Shown here piece after piece: positions 1,206-10,680 of a stretch of 20,686 nt of DNA; the first letter of the stretch is position 1, and each line of letters opens with the position of its first letter. The position numbers were made by a program, and so were the translations under genes. The notes below the pieces were generated by a model. It saw only the letters and a list, made by a program, of their open reading frames with translations, was not told the origin of the DNA and ran no database searches. Source of the DNA: a virus; the IMG/VR virus record IMGVR_UViG_3300031851_000248, positions 1 to 20,686 of that record; one strand, written 5' to 3'.

Positions 1206-1388
1206 ATGAACGATACAGTTGAAACAAAGACTCACGATTCTGTGAGCGAAAAGTCTCTAGATGAGCTACTAGAAGAAGTAGAACAGGTCGAGCGTGACTT
1301 TAGATTGGGTAAAATCGAAGAAAAAGACGTAGAAGAGTATATGATAAAAGTTGCAAAATTCCTATCAATACCTACAGAAAGCCCTTGA
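1206..1388 (+). CDS. Hypothetical acidic helical protein (60 aa)
   Basis: An ATG at 1206 is preceded by AAGGAG (1194-1199) at good spacing. The 60-residue product is very acidic with a Leu/Val/Glu-rich centre (SLDELLEEVEQVERDFRLGK) that should form an amphipathic helix or short coiled coil. There is no signal peptide or membrane segment. I do not recognise a family. It is divergent from the peptidase gene, with only 24-30 bp between the two starts, and I see no clear sigma70 promoter for it. Its TGA stop lies inside the -35 box of the promoter of the next gene. Confidence 0.7.
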   Translation: MNDTVETKTHDSVSEKSLDELLEEVEQVERDFRLGKIEEKDVEEYMIKVAKFLSIPTESP

Positions 1389-1413
1389 CATCTGATTCCA
1401 AATCGGTTATACT
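1385..1413 (+). promoter_or_regulatory. Sigma70-type promoter
   Basis: TTGACA (1385-1390), 17 bp, TATACT (1408-1413). The -35 hexamer contains the TGA stop of the upstream gene. Transcription should start near 1420 and serve the genes at 1442 and 1744. Confidence 0.85.
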
Positions 1414-1441
1414 ATACAAGTAATCAAAAAGAAAGAATCAA

Positions 1442-1720
1442 ATGTTTAGAATTCCTAATGCTTATAAAGAAACTATTAACTTTTCTCAAGCCTGGGACGC
1501 TATGATCTCGTTCGGACGGGGTGATGCACTTGAAGGTATGAGTGCTATGCAACGTGTCTGGACTGAGCATTGTGAATCAGATGTCGGGTTTAATGTCCGA
1601 TTCTCTGATGATAGCGATTTCTTTGAGCATTACCAATATGAGTGTAATGCTTACAATAGAATTTACAATTATATGTCAAGATTGTTTGCTGATGATATAA
1701 GTAAGATTGTGGGTGCTTAA
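1442..1720 (+). CDS. Hypothetical protein (92 aa)
   Basis: This is a 92-residue soluble protein, acidic, with aromatic residues spread throughout and no cysteine-pair or nucleotide-binding motif that I can name. It starts MFRIPNAYKETINF and contains a helical middle (AWDAMISFGRGDALEGMSAM) and a Tyr/Asn-rich end. The start at 1442 lies about 22 nt after the predicted transcription start of its own consensus promoter and has only a weak AAGAA ribosome binding site. The next gene follows after 23 nt, so both are probably one early transcript. Function unknown; that it is a gene is well supported by promoter, length and spacing. Confidence 0.7.
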   Translation: MFRIPNAYKETINFSQAWDAMISFGRGDALEGMSAMQRVWTEHCESDVGFNVRFSDDSDFFEHYQYECNAYNRIYNYMSRLFADDISKIVGA

Positions 1721-1743
1721 CTTTCAAAACAAGGGGTACTAAT

Positions 1744-1968
1744 ATGCTTGAAGAAATACAAGAACCAGAACCAATTATCATCCGAGCAAGTCGTGGAGAT
1801 AGATTGGAGAGATCAGAAGCGGCACGAAGTCGCAGACGAACGGTCAAGCAAGTTAAAACTGTAACTCAAATTAAGGAAGACAAAGACGCTAAAGATCGTG
1901 TAAAAGCGAAGAAGCGTTTAGAAGCACAAAAGCGAAGGGCAAGAAAAAAACTAAAATTAGTTAAATAA
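1744..1968 (+). CDS. Hypothetical highly basic protein (74 aa)
   Basis: AAGGGG (1730-1735 region) precedes the ATG at 1744. The protein has a short acidic head (MLEEIQEPEPIIIRASRG) and then a long Lys/Arg/Ala-rich segment ending KRRARKKLKLVK. Such composition suggests a single helix that binds nucleic acid or ribosomes, as in many small early phage proteins that act on host machinery. There is no membrane segment. It follows the 92-aa gene in the same presumed transcript. A consensus promoter starts only 5 nt after its stop codon. Function is not recognised; nucleic-acid binding is inference from charge alone. Confidence 0.65.
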   Translation: MLEEIQEPEPIIIRASRGDRLERSEAARSRRRTVKQVKTVTQIKEDKDAKDRVKAKKRLEAQKRRARKKLKLVK

Positions 1969-1972
1969 GCCC

Positions 1973-2001
1973 TTGACACTGAGGCACAAACCAGTTATAG
2001 T
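1973..2001 (+). promoter_or_regulatory. Sigma70-type promoter of the tRNA/RNA region
   Basis: TTGACA (1973-1978), 17 bp, TATAGT (1996-2001) within GTTATAGTG. It lies upstream of the 48-aa gene, the 2178-2280 structured element and the tRNA genes, and is the only strong promoter I see for them. Confidence 0.85.
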
Positions 2002-2029
2002 GTACTAGTAATCAGAAAGAGTGAGACGC

Positions 2030-2176
2030 ATGTACAAAGTAACATATACTATCTATCGCAAGTATCACCATGAAAAAATCTTCGATGACTACCAGTCTGC
2101 AAAAGGTTTCTTCTACGGTATATCTCGCAAGTGCCGAGGTTCAAAAGTAACAAAGGCGGAGTTGATCTGCCTTTGA
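2030..2176 (+). CDS. Small basic protein (48 aa)
   Basis: An ATG at 2030 opens a 48-codon frame ending with TGA at 2174-2176. AGAAAGAGTGAG just upstream gives a weak ribosome binding site, and its own consensus promoter ends 28 bp before the start. The product is Tyr- and Lys-rich (MYKVTYTIYRKYHHEKIF, DDYQSAKGFFYGISRKCRG, then SKVTKAELICL) and looks like a small beta-alpha domain with two cysteines. No family is recognised. The last codons form a 10-bp hairpin (2151-2175). The RNA-like element begins 2 nt after the stop, so this ORF may be the 5' part of a mixed mRNA/tRNA transcript. Confidence 0.6.
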   Translation: MYKVTYTIYRKYHHEKIFDDYQSAKGFFYGISRKCRGSKVTKAELICL

Positions 2177-2177
2177 T

Positions 2178-2280
2178 TACACAAATTTATAATACACACC
2201 AGAGTAGATACACCTGCTTTCTAGTGTATGAGACGAGGACTCACAAGGTCACAAGTGAGTGTGTATTATAAATTAGTGTA
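2178..2280 (+). ncRNA. Candidate structured RNA: long-helix three-way junction abutting tRNA-Leu
   Basis: Bases 2184-2199 (AATTTATAATACACAC) are perfectly complementary to 2259-2274. After one A-A mismatch the pairing continues with TACAC (2178-2182) against GTGTA (2276-2280). This gives 21 pairs enclosing about 59 nt. Inside lie two more hairpins: ATACAC (2208-2213) with GTGTAT (2224-2229), and ACTCAC (2239-2244) with GTGAGT (2255-2260), the last sharing two bases with the long helix. There is no ORF. The first base of tRNA-Leu is 2282, so the helix ends 1 nt before it. It could be an RNase III or RNase P processing signal, a separate small RNA, or a decayed tRNA or intron remnant. It does not match a hammerhead core. 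Confidence 0.6.
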
Positions 2281-2281
2281 T

Positions 2282-2366
2282 GCGAGTGTGGTGGAATTGG
2301 TAGACACGCTAGATTTAGGTTCTAGTGTCGCAAGACGTGGAGGTTCAAGTCCTCTCACTCGCACCA
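2282..2366 (+). tRNA. tRNA-Leu (anticodon UAG)
   Basis: Acceptor arm GCGAGTG (2282-2288) pairs with CACTCGC (2356-2362). The anticodon arm is CTAGA-TTTAGGT-TCTAG, giving anticodon TAG, which reads CUA. There is a long variable arm as in class II tRNAs, a T arm GAGG-TTCAAGT-CCTC, and ACCA encoded at 2363-2366. All arms are intact. Confidence 0.95.
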
Positions 2367-2384
2367 AGAACAAGGATTAAGTAG

Positions 2385-2555
2385 ATGTGGGTGTTATATA
2401 TAGTATCGATAATTAGTTTCGGTCCAGACGTTGGAGAACTAAGATTTACTAAATATGATACTTATGATACTGAGTACAATTGTAAGATTACAGAAGCTAT
2501 ATTAAGTGATAGCTTTAGTGAAGACGAAGAAACTCAGTGTAGGTCAGTCTGGTAG
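2385..2555 (+). CDS. Small secreted or membrane protein (56 aa) ending inside tRNA-Pro
   Basis: The ATG at 2385 has AAGGA (2372-2376) at 8 nt spacing. The frame runs 56 codons to a TAG at 2553-2555, so the last 7 codons and the stop lie within tRNA-Pro (from 2533). The N-terminus MWVLYIVSIISFGPDVG is hydrophobic and could be a signal or anchor. The rest is acidic with two cysteines (TEYNCKITEA, EETQCRSVW). I recall short MW-aromatic-start proteins with paired cysteines as common in marine T4-like phages. Good ribosome binding site and composition support a real gene; overlap with a tRNA is the odd point. Function unknown. Confidence 0.6.
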   Translation: MWVLYIVSIISFGPDVGELRFTKYDTYDTEYNCKITEAILSDSFSEDEETQCRSVW

Positions 2556-2609
2556 ACCGCTACGTTTGGGACGTAGATGTCGGTGGTTCGAATCCATCCA
2601 CTGAGACCA
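2533..2609 (+). tRNA. tRNA-Pro (anticodon UGG)
   Basis: Acceptor CTCAGTG (2533-2539) pairs with CACTGAG (2599-2605). D arm is GGTC/GACC, anticodon arm CTACG-TTTGGGA-CGTAG (anticodon TGG), T arm GGTGG-TTCGAAT-CCATC with one G-U pair, and ACCA is encoded at 2606-2609. The stop of the 56-aa ORF falls in the D-arm region. Confidence 0.95.
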
Positions 2610-2954
2610 GATTTCTCTGCTACGATTAAGTAGTGGGGACAGAGAGTGTGTGTTTGGGTTGTTTAACCATTCTCTGATAATATGAAACAACCTACGCTCT
2701 GATTGCCCGTCGATCAGGAGAAGAGTAGAATACTTTATTATACCAAAAGTATAGGGCGGGCCATATTCAAAGTTTTTACTCGACGGAGTAAGATCGTGGT
2801 GACTGAATAATACGTGGTCGTGCGTATAAAGTATTTCTGAAGAGGGTAGCGCCCTGTCCTAGCGGATGCAAGAAAGTTCGAAAGCCAGTTTGACGGGAGC
2901 GTCCAGTGCGAGTAGATGTAGGTACTCCCAAGTCCTACCCACACATTTATATCT
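2610..2954 (+). ncRNA. Candidate large structured RNA between tRNA-Pro and tRNA-Arg
   Basis: No forward ORF of note lies in these 345 nt, but hairpins are dense. TCTCTG+CTAC (2614-2623) pairs with GTAG...CAGAGA (2630-2645). GGTTGTTT (2657-2664) pairs with AAACAACC (2685-2692). CTGAT (2699-2703) pairs with ATCAG (2713-2717). ATACTTT (2730-2736) pairs with AAAGTAT (2746-2752). TTACTC (2776-2781) pairs with GAGTAA (2786-2791). GAGTA (2910-2914) pairs with TACTC (2923-2927). Loop-loop matches include CCGTCG (2707-2712) with CGACGG (2781-2786), and loop GTAGG (2918-2922) with CCTAC (2934-2938), a pseudoknot. TGTGT-TT-GGG (2649-2658) can pair with CCCACACA (2938-2945) to close the domain. Some pairings exclude each other. 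It resembles no RNA class I can name by sequence; GOLLD-like phage RNAs are a contextual comparison only. Confidence 0.5.
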
Positions 2955-3030
2955 GCGCCTGTAACTCAGCGGATAGAGTATCGGTCTACGAAACCGAAGG
3001 TCATATGTTCGAATCATATCAGGCGCACCA
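2955..3030 (+). tRNA. tRNA-Arg (anticodon ACG)
   Basis: Acceptor GCGCCTG (2955-2961) pairs with CAGGCGC (3020-3026). D arm is ACTC/GAGT, anticodon arm TCGGT-CTACGAA-ACCGA (anticodon ACG), T arm ATATG-TTCGAAT-CATAT, and ACCA is encoded at 3027-3030. A34 would need deamination to inosine by host TadA to read CGU/CGC/CGA. Confidence 0.95.
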
Positions 3031-3053
3031 CAGCAAGGCTGTATCACTTCTAA

Positions 3054-3061
3054 TATAAATA
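3054..3061 (+). promoter_or_regulatory. T4-late-like promoter TATAAATA for the tail fibre gene
   Basis: An exact TATAAATA octamer lies 35 bp before the fibre start codon. The predicted start of transcription is near 3067, giving a 29-nt leader that holds AGAAGG as ribosome binding site. Position, strand and the late class of the gene all agree. Confidence 0.65.
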
Positions 3062-3095
3062 GACATATAACTATTTACCAAGAAGGTCTAAACAC

Positions 3096-6000
3096 ATGAC
3101 ACTACCATCATCTGGAGCAATATCAATTGGTGATTTGCGAACTGAGTTTTACTCAGGTAGAAGTTCTGCTCAAATAACTTGTGTACAAATAGGCGATAAC
3201 CTCGAAGAACGTTTACGCAACGGATATATGTCTGGTCATATCGCAGGTTCAACTGAAATAGCAGGGAATCTAGTACGTGGTAAAGCAAAGCCTGAGTTCT
3301 TTAGTATGGTTGTATCTGCTGAAGATGGTGATAAAGTCGATGAAGGCATGGCGATATACGCACACGATAATACTGGCTTTGATTATCTCAATAGAAGTCA
3401 AGGCTTTGGTGGACAATTCAGTGATGACCAAACGCTATACAAAAATATAGCTGTCGGCGCACAACTTGTAACTAAGTATCGAACAGGGTATCAAAACACT
3501 AGTGGTAATTGGGTTCTTGTCTTCACAATGCCTACGATAGCACACAATTTCGAATACTCTCTTCCCTTAACTGTACCAAATTCTGCTGGTAATATAGTCA
3601 ATAGTGTTAATTTTGATACAACAACAGTAGACAGAGAAACTGGTGTTGAGTCAGTAGAAAGAAAAAATATTATACCAACAAGAACAGGTACGGGTACTTG
3701 GGATATTTGGAGTTGGGTTAGAGGTAAGTCATTCACATTAGGACCTCCACGTGAATTAGAACATTTTGTTAGACGTACTGAAACAGCAAATGCTTACCTA
3801 TGTTTATGGGATGACGATAACAATGTTCCTTCCATACTTACAAGCAGTCAAGTTGGTATGCATACTAACATTCCAAACTCGTTTATTCTACCTGGTGGTA
3901 ACACAGACAATATTCCTGCGTACGGTACCACAGGTCTAAGTCTATCTGATTATCGTGGTCAAGGTGAGAATCAAACTTTTATAATCGATCAAACTTATCA
4001 AGAATTAAACTTATTCGACTGGGCTGTCGCAGAAGGATGGAATCAAACAACTCCTCTTACAGTTACAATCAGAGAAAAAGATAATGCTGGTAATGATATA
4101 TGGTTGTACTCAGATGATACTACTAAAGGTGGACTCATTATAGACGGAGACTTTCCGACTTCACAACCCGTTATTATAATCAACAACGGAAAAATCGCTG
4201 GTAAAGGTGGAGACGGTGATAGTAATTCTGGTGGTCCAGCTTTACAAGTTCTATCTGGTGGACCTACTAGTCTAAGTATCATTAACAACTCGACAGGATT
4301 TATAGCTGGAGGTGGTGGCGGAGGCGCTAGTACGCTTGGCGGTGGTGGTGCAGGAGGCGGCACTGGTGCAGGAAACAATCCTAATTTTCCAAATCGTGGC
4401 ACACCTGGTGAAATCGGAGAAGCAGGTGCTTTTGGTGATGCTTGCGGTGGTCGGGGAGGTAACACTCAAAATGGTACTCCTGGCGCTGGCGGTGGGCGAA
4501 TTCTATCTTCAACATTCAATACACCTGGCGGCACAAACGTAGAAAATACAGCAGGCAACGGTGCAACTGGTGGGGGAGCGTGGGGTAAAGCCGCTGTGTT
4601 TGGTGGAGCAGGTGGACTGCCTATTACGCAAGCAACTGGTACTACAATTACACTAACAGATAATGGTACAATCTACGGACCTGATCCTGCTCCTGTAACA
4701 GGAGATGTGCCACCCGTACCATTCTGGAACTTTCCTGATCAGACTTTAATTAATGGTAGCACTTGGACTAAACCTTCTTCTATAGGTAATGATGACTGGG
4801 TTGTATTCTATCTAATTGGCGCAGGCGCAGGAAACAACAGTGCTGGAGGAGATTCCTTTGGCGGAGCAGGTGGTGCGTATCTGATCGCAGTAAAGGGTAG
4901 CGAAGTTCCTTCTAGTGTAAATTATTCAATTGGTGCCGCAGGTACAAGTGGAGATTACGGTCTTATTGGTTCTGGTGAAAACGATCCTATCACTGATGGT
5001 GGAGATACTTCAGTAAGTCTTCAGTCAGGTGGAAGTTTAACAAACTTTGTTGCTCTTGGTGGATCAAAACCAGTAGGCACCACTCAACATATTCCGAGTC
5101 AGAATGAACCAGCTTTTAATCGTGGTGGTACAGGTGGGGCAGGTCGGCTTTACTGGAGAGACTCTTCTGGTACAGTAACTAACGCTATTGCCTTCACAAA
5201 TATATCAGCGCAGAGTTTACTACAGTTACCTAGTGGTAGCAATTCACCAACATTACTAAGAGGTGGTGAAGGTGGAAGTACTGAAGGACCACAATACGGA
5301 ACTCCAAGTAGTGGAAACTTGCCAGGTGGTAACTCAGATTGGGGCGGCGCAGGATATAGTGAATTATCAACTACTGGTGTTTCTACATTTGGTAATGCAG
5401 GTGGCAGTGCTGAAAACGGTAATATAAGAATTTACTGGGACTTCACTCCACCAGAAATTTTAACTCTTGATATTACAGACGGTAACTTTCGAAACGGAAC
5501 TGGCATTGCTAACGTAGTAGCTACTCAAACTATTGATACAATTGTTACACCTGTAGCAACATCAGATGAATGGAGAATAAACTACAATCAGAGTCAAGGT
5601 GGCGGAGCATACATAAGAATTTTTTATGAAGGAAATTTAGTATATACTGGTAGTTTAATAGCAGACGTATCTGCTGTAGAGGGTATCACTGAATTAACAG
5701 TTGATGTGGGCGGAACAGATATAACTTTTGTTAAAGGCACTCAGTTCAGGCTTGATGAGTCACTGGCTACAGGTGCTATCACAGAGAGAGGCTATGCTAT
5801 TTCTAGAAATGTTACTTCGTTTACTCCCACTAGAACTGGTAGAGCCGCAATCGTAGCATTAGGTGCTGGTGCAAGCGGCGCTTGCAGACTAGTAAGATTA
5901 GATGGAAGACAAAATGAAAATGCCGCATGGGGCGGTGGAGCAGGTGGTATGGCAGTAATATTTATGGATGTTACAACTTCAATGACCTTTAATTGCTCTA

Positions 6001-9248: not shown

Positions 9249-9866
9249 TTAATCTGCTAGTGGGTTATCTAATGCTTCTTGTATAGTTTCTTTTACATCT
9301 TTCTCAAGCGTATCCATATCAGTATCAAGGTTTGTTCTCAATTCACGCATTTCTTTACGTGTACCTTTTTCAGATTCACGTACAATGCTTTCTACTTCTC
9401 TTATACTAGAAGTCACATCTTTCTGTAATGTGTTCATCTCTGTTCTAATTTCTTTTAGCGTAGCATCAATCTCTTTCTTTGTTGAGTTGATGCTTGCTTC
9501 TGACTCATCTATCTTGTCTTCCAGTCTATCGATCTGTGCTTCAAGTTTGATGATATCATTTTTAAGGTCGCCCTTAATGTCTCTTGTGTAGTCTATGGCT
9601 TCGTCTAGTTTAGTCTCTATGACGTTGTTACGTGCTTCTATAGCGTCTGTGTCAACGTTCTGGATGATCTCTTTCATATCCATGTAATCTTTGTAGACTT
9701 CAAAGCCGCCGTAAAGACCGCCACCAATTGTACCAAGCAATGCAAACAACGCACCGATTGTAGTTGGTGTCATCGTAATACCAAAGAGTTTCATCTTTGT
9801 GTTTTTAAGGTTCTCTACTTCTTCTTCGAAGTTCTCTATTCCTTCACCTAAATCTTTATTAGCCAT
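9249..9866 (-). CDS. Membrane protein with long coiled coil (205 aa)
   Basis: GAGGTAAGGA precedes the ATG. Residues 1-30 are charged and cytoplasmic-looking. Residues about 35-56 (TTIGALFALLGTIGGGLYGG) form one membrane helix. Residues about 65-200 are an almost unbroken heptad-rich coiled coil (KLDEAIDYTRDIKGDLKNDI, IDRLEDKIDESEASINSTKK and onward) with no Pro until the last residues. This rod could span the periplasm or line the membrane, like spanin or tether proteins. I recall homologous-looking proteins in marine T4-like phages, annotated only as hypothetical. It is 9 nt from the downstream lipase gene and 9 nt after the upstream gene. A structural or spanin-like role is inference. Confidence 0.75.
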   Translation of the reverse strand: MANKDLGEGIENFEEEVENLKNTKMKLFGITMTPTTIGALFALLGTIGGGLYGGFEVYKDYMDMKEIIQNVDTDAIEARNNVIETKLDEAIDYTRDIKGDLKNDIIKLEAQIDRLEDKIDESEASINSTKKEIDATLKEIRTEMNTLQKDVTSSIREVESIVRESEKGTRKEMRELRTNLDTDMDTLEKDVKETIQEALDNPLAD

Positions 9867-9875
9867 TCCTTACCT

Positions 9876-10295
9876 CTAGTTCTCGAATTCTAACGTCTGC
9901 ATCTGTAGCAATTCACGTTCAAGTTTCATTACTTCGAGTCTCTTTTTTCTAAGTTCTAATTGATACAATTCATTACAATTTATTCTATTCTTTACTCTCT
10001 TACCAAGCGGAATTGTAATTCTTGCGTATACACCTATGTCTCTTGGACTATTCCCAAAACTTGTTGGGTCTCGTTGAGCAAACGGATCAGTATTCTCTCT
10101 CGATATGATACCTGTTACACCCATCTCCATCTTTGTTGCAGATCCAATTGCATTAGAGCAATCTAAATCTCCAGTTCTAAACTTGTCTGATTGATAGTTA
10201 CCTGGCATACTAGGCAGTGCTAAGTTCAAAGAACTAGAGTCTGCATACGCTTGCGTAGCCATCATTAATAAAACAATAATTAAGTATCTCATCAT
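9876..10295 (-). CDS. Secreted protein with C-terminal helix (139 aa)
   Basis: The protein starts with a Sec signal peptide (MMRYLIIVLLMMATQAYADS, cleavage after YAD or AYA). The mature region opens SSLNLALPSMPGNYQ, has a Cys at LDCSNAIG and a second at RINCNELYQLELRKKR, and contains the strand pair MGVTGIIS and IGVYARITIPLG. It ends in a charged helix (KKRLEVMKLERELLQMQTLE). I recall a near-identical layout, 'CSNAIG...GVYGRI.IPL...NRINCN.LYQLEL', in hypothetical proteins of T4-like cyanophages, so it is conserved across marine phages. Two cysteines could form a disulphide in the periplasm. AGGTGA precedes the tandem ATGs. Function unknown; it may work with the PapD-like and pilin-like neighbours. 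Confidence 0.75.
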   Translation of the reverse strand: MMRYLIIVLLMMATQAYADSSSLNLALPSMPGNYQSDKFRTGDLDCSNAIGSATKMEMGVTGIISRENTDPFAQRDPTSFGNSPRDIGVYARITIPLGKRVKNRINCNELYQLELRKKRLEVMKLERELLQMQTLEFEN

Positions 10296-10302
10296 TATTC
10301 AC

Positions 10303-10680
10303 CTATTTAACTTTGGAGCAAATGTTGGATGCAACAACAGATTGCCCGCCCCCTTTTAATAATTTTGATCGTGTGCAGATGTACTTAATTCTGCTTGCGT
10401 CACGATCTTTAAAGTATATTTCTAATCTTTTGCGTTCAAGATAGTTCATCTTGATAATTTTTTCAGCACTAGCAAAAGGTACTTTATTCCAATCTGCATC
10501 CCATACTTCAATCTGATAATAGTTCACATCTGCTCTTCTATTGAAGATAACCATTGTTGTAGTCAAAATGTTGTCGTACACCGACTGTTCCAGTTTGGGG
10601 TAGGTCGGAGTTAACTCATGCGCTTGCGCAACACAAGTTAACCCAAAAGACCAAAATAATAAAACAATAACAAAACGCAT
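10303..10680 (-). CDS. Secreted Ig-fold, PapD-chaperone-like protein (125 aa)
   Basis: A signal peptide (MRFVIVLLFWSFGLTCVAQA) is followed by a beta-rich domain: HELTPTYPKLEQS, then TTTMVIFNRRADVNYYQIEV, DADWNKVPFASAEKII and KRLEIYFKDRD. The alternation of strands and the 'IFN..ADV.YY.IEV.D..W' pattern look like the N-terminal half of fimbrial (PapD-type) chaperones, though only one Ig-like domain is present and the length is about half of theirs. Two late cysteines (IKYICTRS, SNICSKVK) may pair. Just upstream lies a secreted beta-sandwich protein that could be its client. The chaperone reading is tentative; secreted beta protein is firm. Confidence 0.7.
   Translation of the reverse strand: MRFVIVLLFWSFGLTCVAQAHELTPTYPKLEQSVYDNILTTTMVIFNRRADVNYYQIEVWDADWNKVPFASAEKIIKMNYLERKRLEIYFKDRDASRIKYICTRSKLLKGGGQSVVASNICSKVK

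Follow-up and report, generated by a model that had tools for sequence, protein, structure and literature searches.

The window, 20,686 nt long and identical with one entire IMG/VR virus record, carries at positions 2768–2948 what is, on the evidence of comparative sequence analysis, a real, conserved and divergent manA RNA, although its score lies below the Rfam cut-off. The manA family itself is already known; what is new is this variant of it together with the tRNA-array setting. We put the probability at roughly 0.6 that the RNA is a discrete phage ncRNA that is cut from tRNA precursors and acts in trans, and not a 5'-UTR switch. Across dozens of related marine phages a manA-type RNA adjoins tRNA genes and is probably a small RNA that is freed along with the tRNAs.

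The source phage is T4-like by gene content (2OG-Fe(II) oxygenase, a baseplate-hub lysozyme domain, a phrog_107 exonuclease and PhoH), and its tRNA array is short, with only three tRNA genes. The preliminary description of this DNA had noted a 345-nt non-coding gap between two of these genes with no convincing ORF in it, and both points hold, the gap being bounded by tRNA-Pro and tRNA-Arg. No terminator-like site is found within window positions 1300–3200. The elements of the array are as follows:

1973–2001, plus strand: likely promoter of the array transcript (a putative role), TTGACA-17-TATAGT, 11/12 consensus matches
2178–2277, plus strand: E95, a companion structured RNA of about 95–100 nt with a long closing stem (2184–2199/2259–2274)
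2282–2366, plus strand: tRNA-Leu (tag), first of the array
2533–2609, plus strand: tRNA-Pro (tgg)
2610–2767, plus strand: 5' spacer between tRNA-Pro and the manA RNA, foldable and lineage-specific
2768–2948, plus strand: divergent manA-family structured RNA of the window-type clade, delimited by RF01745 and model R1
2955–3030, plus strand: tRNA-Arg (acg), which begins 6 nt past the RF01745 match

When sub-threshold matches are shown, the Rfam manA model RF01745 aligns over its whole length (1–192 of 192) to window positions 2776–2948 with 48.1 bits and an E-value of 3.4e-11. This falls short of the curated gathering cut-off of 55.2 bits, so that the Rfam check proposed in the preliminary description does yield a family below the cut-off, while the default cut-offs report tRNAs alone and hide the manA match. 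The suggestion of an undescribed phage RNA gives way to this full-length match, and the structured RNA does not fill the whole 345 nt as had been supposed but is confined to the 3' half. Siblings from the same clade pass the cut-off (L086 and L154 with 63.1 bits each, L228 with 60.3 and record G011 with 65.2). Relatives were gathered by pattern scans of IMG/VR, and a covariance model, R1, was built from 16 window-type RNAs with the window sequence among them; it scores 190 bits at window 2768–2944, a value to be read as that of a training sequence, and recovers about 50 window-type loci, complete or partial. Classical cyanophage manA RNAs, which are absent from the training set, are found full-length by R1 at E-values from 4e-14 to about 1e-6. 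The relation between the window RNA and manA is thus reciprocal, since RF01745 matches the window type and R1 recovers classical manA.

The two types share the 5' GACG hairpin, the near-invariant GUGACUGAAUAA, the closing helix, the 3' hairpin and the loop-loop pseudoknot. Compared with classical manA, the window type has a shorter central domain, a UAGCGGAUGCA hairpin and, in a subset, a sarcin-ricin-like module, and the window RNA itself lies below the curated cut-off and in a tRNA array, not in a 5' UTR. When the stretch and window-type manA were compared by blastn with 50,697 phage records, only tRNA parts and short chance matches came back. There is also a third, strongly divergent manA clade (L633, L640, L648, L656, L659, L661 and L695), found by R1 at E-values from 3e-6 to 0.02, one member of which (L648) reaches 41.3 bits with RF01745. 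In a scan of bacterial and archaeal genomes with 100 loci tested, the sole clear classical manA was L376, the others being chance pattern matches; this copy, on a contig of a genome assembly, scores 172.4 bits, stands behind a strong promoter and is possibly a prophage or phage carry-over.

The fold of 2768–2948 rests on an alignment of 31 distinct rows, window-type and divergent, and its parts are:

2774–2793, plus strand: P1, 5' hairpin with invariant loop GACG (stem 2774–2781/2786–2793), two-sided changes in 8/8 pairs, 96% paired
2796–2942, plus strand: P2, closing helix (2796–2799/2939–2942), 100% paired in the 31 sequences, 3/4 pairs compensated
2799–2810, plus strand: near-invariant hallmark GUGACUGAAUAA
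2810–2827, plus strand: P3 hairpin (2810–2814/2823–2827), 100% paired, 4/5 compensated
2834–2875, plus strand: P4 stem (2834–2838/2871–2875), which encloses P4b and P4c
2843–2846/2852–2855, plus strand: P4b, with compensatory changes
2857–2859/2864–2866, plus strand: P4c, signature UAGCGGAUGCA, 100% paired
2878–2916, plus strand: P5 (2878–2879/2915–2916 and 2884–2885/2908–2909)
2880–2882 (GAA)/2911–2914 (AGUA), plus strand: putative sarcin-ricin-like module in P5
2892–2895/2900–2903, plus strand: P5b
2895–2929, plus strand: loop-loop pseudoknot of the P5b loop (2895–2899, GGGAG) with the P6 loop (2925–2929, CTCCC)
2918–2938, plus strand: P6, 3' hairpin (2918–2922/2934–2938), 100% paired, 3/5 compensated

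Two-sided compensatory changes are seen in 36 of the 42 base pairs and 89% of cells are paired in the 31 distinct sequences, and the covariation score of 0.596 compares with 0.20 in shuffles, none of 500 shuffles reaching the observed value; control slides of the same rows by 1–3 columns give scores of only 0.06–0.18. With both clades pooled (44 distinct sequences), 89.7% of cells are paired and 38/42 pairs are compensated, again with 0/500 shuffles. The compensation in P2 includes GC-to-AU swaps, and the hallmark GUGACUGAAUAA carries one substitution in L283/L284. P4 and P4b are compensated, yet just 63% and 70% of their cells are paired, which is due at least in part to register shifts in the alignment. 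The GAA and AGUA strands of P5 occur together in 13/31 sequences, and most of the others have a Watson-Crick helix instead; the name of sarcin-ricin-like module is our inference from these strands. As for the pseudoknot, which the original authors of the manA motif marked as uncertain (PMC2864571), at least 4 Watson-Crick pairs are possible in 20/31 sequences, against a mean of 12.9 and a maximum of 19 in 2000 sets of reshuffled loops, and relatives show the variants GGGA/TCCC, AGGA/TCCT, CCGA/TCGG and TAGGT/ACCTA. The comparison of loops supports a P5b–P6 kissing interaction that is not universal.

The covariation that the preliminary description had recommended looking for is therefore present in 2768–2948, and together with the conservation it upholds the claim of a structured, functionally constrained RNA in the tRNA array for the 3' part. 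Several of the individual pairings proposed there fare otherwise. The segments 2918–2922 and 2934–2938, described as a pseudoknot, are the nested stem of P6, fully paired and covarying, and the suggested closing helix 2649–2658/2938–2945 would break P2, which is paired in all 31 sequences. The loop match 2707–2712/2781–2786 would join sequence confined to the lineage to the GACG loop of P1, which is conserved throughout. The AAAGTAT repeats do exist, at 2746 and 2828, with no comparative support for the competing pairing ascribed to them. A pairing of GAGTA (2910–2914) with TACTC (2923–2927) was considered and rejected as it is lost in relatives, positions 2911–2914 being the AGUA strand of the GAA/AGUA module.

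Folding energy tells a different story from covariation. The whole 345 nt is structure-rich as described (z −2.4, 0/100 shuffles), but the energy signal is confined to the 5' part: the many hairpins seen across the gap come mostly from 2610–2767 (z −2.96 and 2/200 shuffles for 2610–2762) and not from the manA part (z 0.10 for 2763–2954). Energy alone would miss the manA RNA because of this z of 0.10, and it is covariation that proves the 3' part. The lack of unusual stability is the one point in favor of a decayed gene or a spacer that folds by chance, an explanation which the covariation and the conservation across many phages refute for 2768–2948 and which we regard as very improbable.

The upstream segment is of a different kind. 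L283 and L284, which are near relatives, have 2610–2767 at 98.7% identity (2 substitutions in 159 nt), while the flanking DNA is less conserved at about 93–96.5% identity (about 4–7% substitutions). Pattern scans for relatives beyond the phage's own lineage gave only the same lineage and short chance matches, and most other arrays have no comparable spacer upstream of the manA RNA. This segment could be an additional RNA, or else an insertion specific to the lineage. Since it places 158 nt between tRNA-Pro and the manA RNA, the 5' end of the latter is not set directly by tRNA-Pro.

The tRNA setting of the window RNA is shared by most of its clade. A same-strand tRNA lies at most 15 nt away in 40/52 window-type loci, where about 1% of positions would do so by chance, and the same holds for 18/26 RNAs that are distinct at 95%; the other 8/26 do not touch a tRNA, some of them standing at contig ends. 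No opposite-strand tRNA is found within about 30 nt in the 52 loci. The adjacent tRNAs are of nine amino-acid types, with six anticodon types upstream and six downstream, and the gaps are typically 0–5 nt on the upstream side and 4–13 nt on the downstream side. Side observations on such arrays include 195 nt of non-coding DNA between manA and tRNA-Arg in L046, and inter-tRNA non-coding spacers in the phage tRNA array of L091.

Outside this clade, the isolate S-CREM1 (OP535465) has its manA 1 nt past tRNA-Leu and touching tRNA-Asn; it is wedged between tRNAs like the window RNA, but unlike it is of the classical type (96.6 bits). The available text of the S-CREM1 paper (PMC9964418) lists manA as cis-regulatory with no remark on the tRNA setting, and our literature search found no mention of manA in tRNA arrays beyond that paper. 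The same S-CREM1 array (9745–10567, L612) also holds wcaG and abiF RNAs. In the tRNA-rich cyanophages S-PM2, S-CBWM1 and S-CRM01 manA was not found by a search that succeeded in other cyanophages. Whole-record searches gave exactly one manA copy in each of the 16 phage records with a match, and locus L072 holds two copies.

With the tRNAs packed so closely, neither a terminator nor a ribosome-site switch would fit, and this between-tRNA position is the reason for which we favor a discrete trans-acting RNA. In the mechanism that we propose, the promoter near 1973 would drive one transcript with the tRNAs and the manA RNA on it. RNase P, which would cut where tRNA-Arg begins, and processing after the upstream tRNAs would then free the manA RNA at a length of about 180 nt; in the window lineage 2610–2767 would also be removed, or retained as a leader. 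The freed, folded RNA would then bind a phage or host partner in trans; our guess is that this partner most likely has to do with tRNAs or translation. The strong conservation of the unpaired bases suggests that such a partner is a specific one.

The accepted reading of the family differs. The manA motif was rated a certain RNA, cis-regulatory and a possible switch (Weinberg et al. 2010, PMC2864571), and its Rfam type is Cis-reg; accordingly it could be a 5' leader, a riboswitch candidate, that controls the downstream transcript of tRNA-Arg and structural genes. The classical loci lend this some weight, as they often show the order of promoter, RNA and same-strand ORF: such an ORF follows in 73/86 copies and a tRNA in 5, and a terminator-like site lies within about 80 nt downstream in 18/69 copies where 2.8 are expected. 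Among 74 distinct upstream regions, taken from classical and window-type loci together, 42 have a sigma-70 promoter matching at least 10 of 12 positions (about 1 expected), nearly all of these strong promoters being classical, and the −10 box is at most 7 nt from P1 in all but one of the 42. Two arrangements, one with a tRNA 3' end and one with a promoter on the upstream side, therefore both place the beginning of the RNA at P1, although a promoter at P1 would be equally expected for a 5' leader, which is a counterpoint to the discrete ncRNA. Against a cis-acting leader, the window-type copies are flanked by one or more tRNAs with no terminator or ribosome site in the short gap to the downstream tRNA, and the window RNA is followed by tRNA-Arg and not by a metabolic, photosynthesis or chaperone gene for which it could be the 5' UTR. 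The neighbors also vary freely, from the nine tRNA types to regA/purL, ferredoxin, gp23 and an opposite-strand ORF in named cyanophages. We find a cis-acting leader possible for the classical copies and, for the window RNA, unlikely; the setting of manA argues against the accepted cis-regulatory label, with an ncRNA function as the candidate in its place. A limited search of the manA literature found no ligand.

In 41/84 classical copies (e.g., L021, L072, L043 and L085) the −35 box TTGACA falls within the loop of a hairpin that belongs to the upstream gene and resembles an intrinsic terminator, and a few such terminator-loop promoter elements precede other cyanophage genes too.

The precise packing between tRNAs would also suit a structural spacer or processing element that serves to mature the tRNA precursor and has no role after cleavage, and the long-stemmed E95, which occurs in similar junctions and as the intervening segment in permuted tmRNA genes, points the same way. 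Many array junctions have no manA RNA, however, members of the family are also found at a distance from any tRNA and behind a promoter of their own, and a pure spacer would hardly account for the conserved unpaired bases, so we give this explanation rather less credence than the leader.

Stable RNAs beside phage tRNAs have a precedent in RNAs C and D of T4 (species 1 and 2), which are 139 and 119 nt long, with gaps of 1–6 nt to tRNA-Arg and between the two. The setting appears analogous, not homologous; homology to rnaC/rnaD was rejected, R1 scoring no higher than 8.9 bits anywhere in the T4 cluster, and that at a place outside both genes. GOLLD and ROOL are phage and prophage RNAs near tRNA islands with unknown function (PMC12286853), and unlike the window RNA they are much larger and form RNA cages. 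The Rfam models of both give no match in the window up to an E-value of 10, so that the comparison with GOLLD drawn in the preliminary description is apt as it was meant, as an analogy without sequence match.

E95, which lies outside 2610–2954 but in the same array, may be a more novel item than the manA variant. Its site lies just upstream of tRNA-Leu and has a fold much more stable than those of its shuffles (z −4.98), R2, a model of E95 relatives, scores 96 bits at the window copy, and among the relatives 16/29 pairs are compensated and 95.5% of cells paired, with 0/500 shuffles. An Rfam search of 2178–2277 gave no credible match, and we know of no description of such an RNA. The relatives that bear it are uncultivated phages; a search of 289 alphaproteobacterial genomes, run without a positive control, returned none. 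In arrays of the L145 type the order is manA (4694–4869), E95 (4870–4968) and tRNA-Pro, whereas in L677 E95 stands alone between tRNA-Pro and tRNA-Asn. It is also the intervening segment, from CCA end to 5' end, of permuted alpha-type tmRNA genes (L616, L620, L622, L624, L627, L639 and L670). On these grounds we tentatively propose, at somewhat short of even odds, that manA and E95 are both discrete RNA genes of phage tRNA arrays, linked to each other and acting in trans, and that the enzymes which process tRNA and tmRNA release them. The published riboswitch candidate would then be a tRNA-array RNA, and E95 a new family common to the arrays and to the intervening segment of permuted phage tmRNA genes.

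From 2010 onwards manA has figured among the riboswitch candidates. Should a large share of its members instead be tRNA-array RNAs released by processing, looking for a ligand would be misdirected, and the useful course would be to map transcripts and to pull down partners. Since S-CREM1 and Synechococcus CB0101 are an isolated phage-host pair with manA between two tRNAs, the question is directly testable. E95 would connect tRNA arrays to phage tmRNA genes, and taken with T4 RNAs C and D, GOLLD and ROOL, these RNAs would support the idea of phage tRNA arrays as general RNA expression cassettes. In the third manA clade the manA RNAs are followed by E95 a few nucleotides downstream, and the contig L199, which has a tRNA-manA-tRNA array, also carries a permuted alpha-type tmRNA that is cut by the contig end.
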